Shown piece after piece: positions 2,240 through 26,284 of a DNA stretch of 64,000 nucleotides. How positions within the stretch are numbered: position 1 is the first letter of the stretch; the number at the start of each line of letters is the position of its first letter. Made by a program: the position numbers and the translations under genes. This DNA comes from Paenibacillus terricola (lineage in GTDB: Bacteria; Bacillota; Bacilli; Paenibacillales; Paenibacillaceae): the NCBI RefSeq assembly GCF_014779765.1, contig NZ_JACXZA010000005.1, positions 248,001 to 312,000 on the forward strand. The letters are read 5' to 3'. A model generated the notes under the pieces. It ran no database searches, was not told the DNA's origin, and saw only the letters and a program-made list of their open reading frames with translations.

Positions 2240-2680
2240 ATGGCTAAATCCGTGAAGGTAACGACATCATGGAATGAGGACGGTTACGTAGAAATTGAGT
2301 CGAGAGGACATAAAGTGATTTCTGATGTGCGAGCAGAGCTCGGAGGGACGGACAGGGGCTTGGCTCCAGGTGAACTGCTTATCGGTTCGCTGGGCTCCTG
2401 CCAGTTGCTAGTCGCTCAACTGAATGCTAAGCGATTTGATATTGATATTCAGAACTTGGCGGTGGAATTAGAAGCAGAAAGCGTGAATGACGAACACAAC
2501 GGCAAGTCGCTGTTCCCTACGATCAAATTCAGTATTCGGGTGGAATCCAATTCCCCCGAGGAGAAAGTGAAAGCATTCATCGAATTCGTTGAGAATCATT
2601 GCCCAGTAGGCGCAACCTTATCGAGTGCAGTCCAGCTTATTCAGTCCGAGTTGATTGTGAAGAGACCGGAATATCATTAA
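2240..2680 (+). CDS. OsmC/Ohr family peroxide-reductase-like protein
   Basis: A 146-aa cytoplasmic protein of the OsmC superfamily, thiol-dependent hydroperoxide reductases. The two family cysteine contexts are present: LGSCQLLVAQL (Cys54) and NHCPVGATLSSA near residue 120. The intervening half holds the ELEAESVNDEHN strand region. The length is normal. ATG at 2240 with AGAAGGG upstream. The neighbour transcribed away is a cysteine synthase, which fits a thiol-redox theme. An inverted repeat sits directly before the ribosome site (see the control region). Not clearly Ohr or OsmC in the strict sense, so no symbol is given. Confidence 0.82.
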   Translation: MAKSVKVTTSWNEDGYVEIESRGHKVISDVRAELGGTDRGLAPGELLIGSLGSCQLLVAQLNAKRFDIDIQNLAVELEAESVNDEHNGKSLFPTIKFSIRVESNSPEEKVKAFIEFVENHCPVGATLSSAVQLIQSELIVKRPEYH

Positions 2681-2686
2681 CATAAA

Positions 2687-2727
2687 TGAAGAACGTGCAG
2701 GGTCGCCAAGACTCCACACGTTCTTCT
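2687..2727. terminator. Bidirectional terminator between osmC-like gene and guaA
   Basis: GAAGAACGTG (2688-2697) pairs with CACGTTCTTC (2717-2726). It sits between two convergent genes and is U-rich on the plus-strand side (TTCTTCTTC). Confidence 0.65.
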
Positions 2728-24590: not shown

Positions 24591-25724
24591 TTATTCCTCG
24601 TCCCAATTCCGTGAATGATTCACCTTCTGCCGTGGCTTCCCTGCGCTTGCTCCGCTCCGGCGTTCCTTGCTGCGCTGATCGATGCGTTCCTTACGCGCTT
24701 GATGCGCAATCTCCTTGCCTGTCTTCAAGTAGTTGTTATAGCGCCGACGGTCTAGATCGCCAGTCGCTAGAGCCGCAAGCACGGCGCAGCCTTCTTCACG
24801 CTCATGGCGGCAATCGCGGTATCGACAATTCGCAGCCAGCGCTGCAATATCGCTGAACGCTTCCTCGTGCCCTTCGTCGGCATGCCATAGCTGCAGCTCG
24901 CGCATCCCCGGCGTATCCATAAGCAGCGCTCCGCCCGCAATCGGGAACAGCTCACGATGCGTTGTCGTATGTCTTCCCTTGGCATCATCCTCACGGATGT
25001 CCTGTACGCGCATCCGATCCGCTTCGGACAGCCAATTCAGCAGCGTTGATTTGCCTGCTCCGGATGAGCCAGCAACAGCAACCGTCACGCCTTGACCCAA
25101 GTAAGGCGCCAGATGCTCCCGTCCTTCTCCATTCATTGCACTAACGACGACGGCTGGCACACTGGCGGGAATGAATGCACGAGTCTGCTCCGCCATTTCT
25201 TCCGGATTGGGACATAGATCCGCCTTCGTCAGCACAATAACCGGCTGAGCGCAGCTTCCCATTGCAGCTGTCAAATACCGCTCAATTCGCCGCAGATTAA
25301 AATCCTGATTCAGCGCAATGACGAGAAAGAGGAAGTCGATATTCGCACCGATAACCTGCTCCTGCCATTGACTGCCCGCTACTTTGCGGGAAACCGCGGA
25401 TTGGCGCGGCAGCAGCGCGTGTATGACGACTCGCTCGTCGCCAGGCGCAAGTTCCGCCATTACCCAATCGCCGACAGCTGGGTAATCCCCCTTGCCCGAT
25501 GCCTCATATTGATAACGTCCAGCCACAGTGCCGAGACGTTCTCCTTCGTTCGTCATCACCCGATAGACGTGAGAGAACTGTGCGGTAACACGCGCCGGCA
25601 CGAGCGCTCTCGCTTGATGGTGTTCTGCTGCAGCCTCTGCTGCTTTCTTCTCCCATTGCTCATTCCAGCCATACGCTTGCAATACGGAGGTTTTATAACC
25701 CTTAATAGGTGTATTATGGTTCAA
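24591..25724 (-). CDS. rsgA: RsgA-family circularly permuted GTPase (ribosome small-subunit maturation)
   Basis: A 377-aa protein. N-terminal OB fold, then GTPase motifs in permuted order: G4 (TKAD), G1 (GSSGAGKST), G3 (DTPG); a C-terminal zinc knuckle with CRYRDCRHEREEGC. Such GTPases aid late 30S assembly. It is longer than typical RsgA and starts with an N-terminal extension (YGWNEQWEKKAAEAAAEHHQ), like the second RsgA-type paralogue of Bacillales rather than the copy beside prkC, which would be elsewhere. A TTG at 25724 has GAGGAG 8 bases upstream; an ATG nine codons earlier has only a weak site. Confidence 0.88.
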   Translation of the reverse strand: MNHNTPIKGYKTSVLQAYGWNEQWEKKAAEAAAEHHQARALVPARVTAQFSHVYRVMTNEGERLGTVAGRYQYEASGKGDYPAVGDWVMAELAPGDERVVIHALLPRQSAVSRKVAGSQWQEQVIGANIDFLFLVIALNQDFNLRRIERYLTAAMGSCAQPVIVLTKADLCPNPEEMAEQTRAFIPASVPAVVVSAMNGEGREHLAPYLGQGVTVAVAGSSGAGKSTLLNWLSEADRMRVQDIREDDAKGRHTTTHRELFPIAGGALLMDTPGMRELQLWHADEGHEEAFSDIAALAANCRYRDCRHEREEGCAVLAALATGDLDRRRYNNYLKTGKEIAHQARKERIDQRSKERRSGASAGKPRQKVNHSRNWDEE

Positions 25725-25927
25725 ATGTTTAGCTCCTCTAATGAAATTCATAGTCTTTCTTGAAAATATAATCTCTTTGGTGTCACTCGTTATACTGCAA
25801 TTTCAGCTTCGTTATACTGTAAGCATGCTCTCAAGGCATGAATCGCCCCATAGTTGTTAGGGCCGTGATTAGCATTGCTGGCGGATGTTCAGCTGTGCGC
25901 AGGCTGCAGCCACAATTCGCCCAAAAC

Positions 25928-25958
25928 CAAAAAACCTGCGCGGTCTCCCGGCAGGTTT
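25928..25958 (-). terminator. Terminator hairpin H5 (distal)
   Basis: On the minus strand AAACCTGC pairs with GCAGGTTT, followed by a T run (TTTTTTGG). Distal terminator of the structured-RNA unit. Confidence 0.7.
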
Positions 25959-25971
25959 CCATGCTTGCGCT

Positions 25972-26010
25972 GACGTATAGACGCACGAAACTAGAGCGCG
26001 TCTACACGTC
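25972..26010 (-). ncRNA. Structured RNA stem H4
   Basis: GACGTATAGACGC (25972-25984) and GCGTCTACACGTC (25998-26010) form a 13-bp stem. The single non-identical position is G.U in a minus-strand RNA but A.C in a plus-strand RNA, which supports minus-strand transcription. Confidence 0.5.
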
Positions 26011-26020
26011 AAACAGCAAA

Positions 26021-26058
26021 ACAAAAAACCGGGGAGACCCAATCGGTCTCTCCCGGTT
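26021..26058 (-). terminator. Strong terminator H3 after the 25-codon ORF
   Basis: On the minus strand AACCGGGAGAGACC pairs with GGTCTCCCCGGTT (one bulge), immediately followed by TTTTGTTTTG. It is about 60 bases after the small ORF stop. Confidence 0.8.
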
Positions 26059-26065
26059 CAGCTTC

Positions 26066-26094
26066 CATACACCATGCGTAATGCATGGCGTATG
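26066..26094 (-). ncRNA. Structured RNA stem H2
   Basis: A 12-bp stem from CATACACCATGC (26066-26077) and GCATGGCGTATG (26083-26094) with a 5-base loop. The one variable position is a G.U pair only if the minus strand is transcribed. Confidence 0.5.
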
Positions 26095-26104
26095 CGTTCA
26101 TACC

Positions 26105-26128
26105 GATCACTGTCCATTAACAGTGATC
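26105..26128 (-). ncRNA. Structured RNA stem H1 overlapping the small-ORF stop
   Basis: GATCACTGT and ACAGTGATC form a perfect 9-bp stem. The 6-base loop contains the TAA stop of the 25-codon ORF, so a terminating ribosome would open it. Confidence 0.55.
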
Positions 26129-26194
26129 AATATTCGTAAGCGTCCGTAGAGACCGATGGCCATGTAGTTGCTGCGTCGTCATCATTGTTCTCAT
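26117..26194 (-). CDS. Small ORF / possible leader peptide, 25 aa
   Basis: Starts MRTMMTTQQLHGHRSL and ends NIDHC: basic, Thr/His-rich, not hydrophobic. I know no homologue. Support comes from its context: an ideal AAGGAGG ribosome site 10 bases before the ATG, its own sigma-A-like promoter 33 bases upstream, and a series of RNA hairpins beginning at its stop. It could be a leader peptide, a small functional protein or the translated part of a regulatory RNA. Confidence 0.5.
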   Translation of the reverse strand: MRTMMTTQQLHGHRSLRTLTNIDHC

Positions 26195-26226
26195 AGCACA
26201 TCAGCCTCCTTGAAATTAGTATCACC

Positions 26227-26256
26227 AGTATATCCCTTAACCGTCAGTTTGTGCAA
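26227..26256 (-). promoter_or_regulatory. Sigma-A-like promoter of the small structured unit
   Basis: On the minus strand TTGCAC (26256-26251), 18 bases, TATACT (26232-26227). It lies wholly in the 90-bp gap between the deacetylase stop and the small ORF. Confidence 0.6.
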
Positions 26257-26284
26257 CAACACATTTGATGAATTGGAAATTATT

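Follow-up and report, generated by a model that had tools for sequence, protein, structure and literature searches.

What is the function of the compact unit of about 330 bases that lies on the minus strand between a deacetylase gene and an RsgA-type gene in Paenibacillus terricola? The unit is part of a 64,000-nucleotide stretch of DNA (the window in what follows, to which coordinates refer unless another region is named), and a first-pass annotation of this stretch had left three possibilities side by side: a leader-peptide attenuator controlling rsgA, a small-protein gene or a regulatory RNA. Comparison with related loci, together with folding of the transcript in several ribosome-occupied states, leads us to conclude that it is very probably a translation-coupled transcription attenuator and that, on comparative sequence evidence, it forms the 5′ leader of a second, non-canonical rsgA gene that follows it.

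Anatomy of the Unit

A check of the window sequence recovers every element of the unit on the minus strand where the first-pass annotation had placed it, including the promoter, the AAGGAGG, the 25-codon ORF (the uORF below) and the five hairpins, the first of which has the uORF stop at its loop. What had been overlooked is the complementarity that runs through the Shine-Dalgarno sequence, the uORF, the 5′ and 3′ arms of T1 and T2, as well as the homologs and the likely TTG start of rsgA at 25724. The elements and the complementary segments S1 to S5 are as follows.

26227 to 26256, minus strand: sigma-A-type promoter TTGCAC-N18-TATACT (TTGCAC 26256-26251, TATACT 26232-26227), found at the same place in P. 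cellulosilyticus
26211-26205, minus strand: uORF Shine-Dalgarno AAGGAGG, from the window sequence
26199 to 26209, minus strand: S1, the uORF Shine-Dalgarno plus extension, GGAGGCTGATG, pairing with S2
26117 to 26194, minus strand: uORF of 25 codons, MRTMMTTQQLHGHRSLRTLTNIDHC, ATG at 26194 and stop ending at 26117; start, stop and frame are kept in relatives, the peptide is not
26148 to 26158, minus strand: S2, CATCGGTCTCT, uORF codons 13-16, the switch strand, pairing with S1 or S3
26100 to 26133, minus strand: hairpin H1, uORF stop at the loop; a similar hairpin of different sequence occurs in two sister species
26066 to 26094, minus strand: hairpin H2, 12 bp including one G·U, from folding
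26042 to 26051, minus strand: S3, AGAGACCGAT, T1 5′ arm and loop, pairing with S2 (antiterminator) or S4 (terminator)
26023 to 26059, minus strand: T1 (H3), intrinsic terminator, −24.8 kcal/mol, followed by a T-run; the stem covaries in 24 leaders
26039-26029, minus strand: S4, GGTCTCCCCGG, T1 3′ arm, pairing with S3 and complementary to S5
25971 to 26011, minus strand: hairpin H4 between both terminators, from folding
25929 to 25959, minus strand: T2 (H5), second intrinsic terminator, a hairpin and then a T-tract
25951-25942, minus strand: S5, CCGGGAGACC, T2 5′ arm and loop, complementary to S4
24591 to 25724, minus strand: rsgA paralog, RBS GAGGAG at 25738-25733, likely start TTG 25724

Among the five hairpins only H3 and H5 are followed by T-tracts, which bears out their earlier reading as terminators. 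In place of H1, H2 and H4, P. cellulosilyticus and P. kobensis have other sequences that fold in a similar way, and H1 is possibly a pause or spacer hairpin. The leader as a whole folds with −146.5 kcal/mol, compared with a mean of −88.4 kcal/mol for shuffled sequences (z = −11.1; 0 of 200 shuffles as good). Scored for sigma-A-like promoters upstream of the Shine-Dalgarno, 59 related leaders have a mean best match of 10.4 out of 12 versus 6.7 in shuffles, and the window promoter scores 9 out of 12. The single G·U pairs of H2 and H4, from which selection for RNA structure on this strand had been argued, do exist, but a case built on two positions is weak, and the conserved signals are a better guide to the strand. 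The unit is present in single copy, a search for a second one in its own genome having found none.

The Downstream Gene

The gene that follows encodes an RsgA GTPase (PF03193, 169 bits against a cut-off of 30, E = 1e-49; TIGR00157, 154.6 bits against a cut-off of 100), and RsgA chains are the best relatives of its product among solved structures. It is one of two RsgA-like genes in the genome; in relatives the canonical RsgA was defined as the weaker match, with about 30-38% identity to the query. Translation most likely starts at TTG 25724, and both the RBS and the TTG are identical in the P. cellulosilyticus paralog. The ATG at 25751 that opens the longest frame sits upstream of the RBS, while the conserved TTG is preceded by GAGGAG.

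Between T2 and rsgA lie about 200 nt in the window and just about 60 nt in P. cellulosilyticus, where transcription of rsgA must therefore pass both terminators. A promoter scan returned no promoter-like site in the T2-rsgA interval of the window. Relative to P. cellulosilyticus the window holds about 140 nt extra between T2 and rsgA (25724-25928).

Distribution of the Leader

In both P. cellulosilyticus and P. kobensis a leader of the same architecture precedes this gene, and a sequence pattern derived from these two species and the window matches 26 of 295 Paenibacillaceae genomes, some of the matches being chance ones inside genes. When 80 regions upstream of rsgA-like genes were compared under one fixed criterion, a uORF with a strong Shine-Dalgarno followed by a terminator, the two elements were found before 63 of 80 rsgA paralogs versus 0 of 15 canonical rsgA genes. 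A covariance search across Paenibacillaceae, suggested with the first-pass annotation, was carried out with a model built from 24 leaders; it matches 79 of 118 genomes in 14 of 19 genera at E ≤ 0.1, a threshold at which the weaker matches are partly due to chance, and nearly all of the strong matches precede an rsgA paralog. Four matches (L177, L179, L180 and L181) were rejected as ordinary terminators. A wider scan, covering 84,980 species, gave 31 matches from Paenibacillus and Cohnella, every one with a uORF. Of these, 28 are followed by rsgA and 3 are cut off by the end of the retrieved sequence. None of the 15 matches from other phyla is accompanied by rsgA.

This rsgA paralog is present in 36 of 101 Bacilli genomes sampled (7 of them Paenibacillaceae). 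Most of 20 upstream regions from other Bacilli contain a uORF with a strong Shine-Dalgarno, some with a terminator, and some hold repeats able to hide the rsgA Shine-Dalgarno. As regions L182-L201 illustrate, uORFs precede the rsgA paralog in many other Bacilli families; in L182-L184 the uORF contains GGAATCCTCC, complementary to its own Shine-Dalgarno, and a GGATTC stretch could mask the rsgA Shine-Dalgarno region, an erm-like layout. In a switch test of possible translational attenuation in terminator-less leaders of other Bacilli families, folding gave no consistent change in how accessible the rsgA Shine-Dalgarno is. A third RsgA group (L105, L107, L108, L110, L112) has a very short uORF, approximately MAATYxVVxS-stop, about 20-530 nt upstream, mostly with one or two terminators after it, and this peptide looks conserved.

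uORF-terminator leaders of a similar kind are also found before rtcB (RNA ligase) in three genera (L014/L015, about 1500-1850; L175 and L176, about 300-560), which suggests shared ribosome-stress regulation. Similar leaders precede a GNAT acetyltransferase gene (L174, about 300-500; covariance-model E = 1.5e-18) and a gene without a Pfam match (L178, about 2500-2700, minus strand) that, judged by eye, resembles the gene after rtcB in L175.

Conserved Segments and Covariation

What is conserved in these leaders is a set of three RNA segments, S1, S2 and S3; the uORF peptides diverge, and the loops and the uORF N-terminus vary freely. S2 is complementary both to S1 and to S3, the latter containing AGAGACC in T1, and in the window 11 of 11 pairs can be drawn for S1:S2 and 10 of 10 for S2:S3. 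Over the 24 leaders 91.7% of the S1:S2 cells are paired, compared with 38-51% when the segments are slid, and, the Shine-Dalgarno being fixed, the main alignment contains no double change for this helix. For S2:S3 the pairing amounts to 79% in the 24-leader alignment and drops to 52% or less upon sliding, with 11 double-change cells versus 4.1 expected (0 of 500 shuffles). Compensatory change in the stems of relatives, on which the first-pass annotation had made its reading depend, is present in these S2:S3 double changes.

Against dinucleotide-shuffled uORFs p ≤ 0.05 is obtained for S1:S2 in 35 of 59 leaders and for S2:S3 in 25 of 59 (window z = −3.7 and −4.0, respectively, p < 0.005 for both), own pairs are stronger than between-genus swaps (p = 7e-5 for S1:S2 and 1.5e-4 for S2:S3), and S4 pairs better with its own T2 5′ arm than with that of another genus (−19.0 versus −13.8 kcal/mol; p = 1e-5), all p-values being optimistic in that the shuffle and swap tests count related leaders as independent. 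In these tests the signal of each helix comes from several genera and not from all, S2:S3 being weak in genera g6 and g18. Of the three functions considered at the outset it is the leader-peptide attenuator for rsgA that is supported, by the presence of rsgA downstream in nearly all homologs, by the short interval after T2 and by the joint variation of S1, S2, S3 and the terminators.

The same comparisons weigh on the remaining readings. A short regulatory RNA that ends at T1 or T2 and acts in trans would be a natural product of a strong promoter and terminators, and terminated leader RNAs such as rli80 do accumulate (PMC6310831); such an RNA would arise here too, but a role in trans is not needed. 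Conservation falls on the segments that exclude one another and on the association with rsgA, with loops and uORF N-terminus variable, and we think it very unlikely that the chief function of the leader is to make such a trans-acting RNA. Still less probable is a gene for a small protein that has terminators of its own and no relation to rsgA. The strong Shine-Dalgarno and the retained start and stop would agree with it, but about 11 uORF codons differ by amino-acid-changing and 2 by silent substitution between the window and its sister species P. cellulosilyticus; the peptide is not conserved, the Shine-Dalgarno and S2 are unchanged between the two, and the conserved CGGTCTC is read in different frames across genera (RSL, SVS, GL). 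Finally, the unit lies directly downstream of the deacetylase gene and could be taken for plain gene-end terminators of that gene plus a chance ORF, a reading that is hardly credible at all in view of the promoter of its own, the conserved uORF and the class-wide link to rsgA, and that the comparison contradicts.

Folding and Ribosome Position

The transcript up to S3 was folded with the ribosome absent, placed on the Shine-Dalgarno and codons 1-7, or placed at the stop. For the window the free RNA gives 8.5 expected pairs in S1:S2 and 2.3 in S2:S3; with codons 1-7 occupied the values become 0 and 9.9, and with the ribosome at the stop 9.6 and 1.2. An early stall yields about 7 or more S2:S3 pairs in all 12 leaders folded, and in 3 of these 12 S2:S3 is already favoured without a ribosome. 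S2 begins at nt 42 (median). Since T1 is thermodynamically very stable, the switching must be kinetic.

Anatomy, conservation, covariation, position before rsgA and predicted switching are computed, and action in cells is what we infer. The full explanation that we propose, and hold to be likely, is that the rsgA paralog has a leader in which a stalled ribosome would set a five-segment attenuator through the pairing chain S1, S2, S3, S4, S5. If the uORF is read undelayed, or is left unread, S1:S2 can form, S3:S4 and T2 would fold and transcription would end before rsgA. A ribosome halted in about the first seven codons would block the pairing of S1 and free S2, which would then capture S3 and prevent T1. 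The freed S4 may in turn capture S5 and weaken T2; as S4, on the 3′ side of T1, fits the 5′ arm of T2, the two terminators could fail together. With both of them off RNA polymerase would enter rsgA. H1 and H2 may aid the timing, and the halt itself would come from a ribosome-targeting antibiotic or comparable ribosome stress.

What the uORF Might Sense

Across 43 distinct uORFs, the residues V, S, N, T, L and I are abundant in the N-terminal part, and 11 of the 43 contain S-I-V, versus 0.9 expected, usually near codon 7-9. The motif fits a nascent-peptide stall as in antibiotic leaders and suggests one in many members; its codons are partly synonymous among uORFs, and it may in part be inherited DNA, TCGATT being common. 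The recurrent I/V-rich stretch near codon 7-9 is presumably reminiscent of ErmCL. In about half of the uORFs with the I/V motif a ribosome stalled at V would overlap S2, mostly by 1-7 nt. The window uORF (MRTMMTTQQ...) contains neither S-I-V nor an RLR-type arrest motif, and that of P. cellulosilyticus has just MIVQ at the S-I-V place. Met-rich uORF starts are seen in the window, L018, L152, L174 and L175 (MRTMM, NPMMML, VMMIS, RMMN and RMMRF). R/K-X-R/K (RLR) is not enriched in the N-terminal part of the uORFs, occurring in 1 of 43 versus 1.6 expected, and with the motif absent an RLR-type macrolide leader was rejected; an amino-acid attenuator was likewise rejected, there being no shared regulatory codon run and the downstream gene not being biosynthetic. 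A drug or ribosome stress is our best guess because of the precedents of HflXr, vmlR and the Streptomyces RsgA/EngC paralog, and we lean slightly toward an antibiotic as the usual cause of the halt, by analogy with these systems.

The same switch might be fed by another input, slow initiation or early elongation brought about, for example, by defective 30S, scarce initiator tRNA or amino-acid shortage, and would then provide feedback for a 30S-maturation GTPase. The ON state needs a ribosome on the first codons only, with the median start of S2 at nt 42; uORF peptides differ widely from genus to genus, several uORFs of the g1 type are rich in Met, and 30S/16S rRNA is the site of action of both RsgA and RtcB (PMC5175333). 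The recurrent S-I-V speaks against such an input by suggesting a nascent-peptide-dependent stall in many members, and a codon run for a single amino acid, typical of the classic amino-acid attenuators, is not found. We regard this other input as rather doubtful and retain antibiotic or comparable ribosome stress as the preferred input.

Relation to Known Systems

The erm leader-peptide attenuators share with the unit a four-segment logic; attenuation of ermC is translational, whereas the unit is predicted to act by transcription termination. The closest systems, together with vmlR, are the hflXr leader rli80 (Listeria lmo0762; PMC6310831) and the Bacillales hflX motif uORFC-6-1 (PMC8632094); HflXr, a duplicated GTPase of the ribosome, is controlled by a uORF attenuator (PMC6310831). 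The hflXr leaders and the unit have in common a uORF, a mutually exclusive terminator and antiterminator and a duplicated ribosome-associated GTPase as target; they differ in that the target is RsgA (30S) and not HflX, no RLR is present, there are two tandem terminators, and the uORF's own Shine-Dalgarno is a switch strand in the unit. The vmlR leader of B. subtilis (PMC9226507) shares the anti-antiterminator (approximately S1:S2), the antiterminator (approximately S2:S3) and the terminator, with the uORF ribosome blocking the first of these, but has a 3-codon uORF and an ABC-F target where the unit has a uORF of 25 codons, a pair of terminators and RsgA as its target. As in uORF attenuators of the hflXr/vmlR type, the unit has its own promoter and uORF, a terminator before the gene and compensated S2:S3 pairing, and, as seen by folding only, a ribosome position that changes the helix.

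In Streptomyces a tetracycline-induced RsgA/EngC paralog is activated by WblC, within the WblC/WhiB7 regulon (PMC7157823); there it is wblC itself that has the uORF attenuator, control of the paralog is by a trans-acting factor and not by a leader before rsgA (PMC7157823). E. coli rtcBA is induced by translation-impairing agents and supports 16S rRNA stability (PMC5175333).

The first-pass annotation knew of no described family of this kind. As regards the RNA family this holds, Rfam giving no match above the gathering score and nothing credible at E ≤ 10, and open papers yielding no such RNA family, rsgA target or five-segment two-terminator chain, although single members may have earlier mention; the main text of two large surveys devoted to novel RNA motifs of bacteria mentions the uORF motif of hflX and not rsgA. 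As regards the kind of mechanism it does not, since hflXr, vmlR, erm and bmrCD leaders are known. What appears to be new, judged by Rfam and the open papers searched, is the RNA family, the target and the five-segment chain, and the underlying logic is shared with uORF attenuators already described.

Implications

A five-segment chain with two matched terminators would suit the design of a natural low-leak switch. Leaders of this kind have earlier marked out resistance and ribosome-rescue genes (hflXr, ABC-F genes, erm). A uORF leader stands before the rsgA paralog in most Paenibacillaceae and many other Bacilli, and is missing before canonical rsgA. This distribution predicts that stalling of ribosomes switches on production of the second RsgA, which bears on why many Firmicutes keep two RsgA proteins. 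If the antibiotic or ribosome-stress input is correct, the second RsgA would resemble HflXr in being a GTPase that is induced to rescue or protect ribosomes. Tentatively, the leaders may belong to an unrecognised, cis-controlled ribosome-damage response of Bacilli in which ribosomes stalled or slowed early in the uORF would induce not only the second RsgA but also, in certain species, RtcB and a GNAT acetyltransferase, with 30S quality or occupancy as the signal and the second RsgA as a ribosome-rescue or antibiotic-protection factor. The second RsgA, on which little work has been done, is a candidate intrinsic-tolerance factor and a candidate component of the bacterial response to ribosome-blocking stress.
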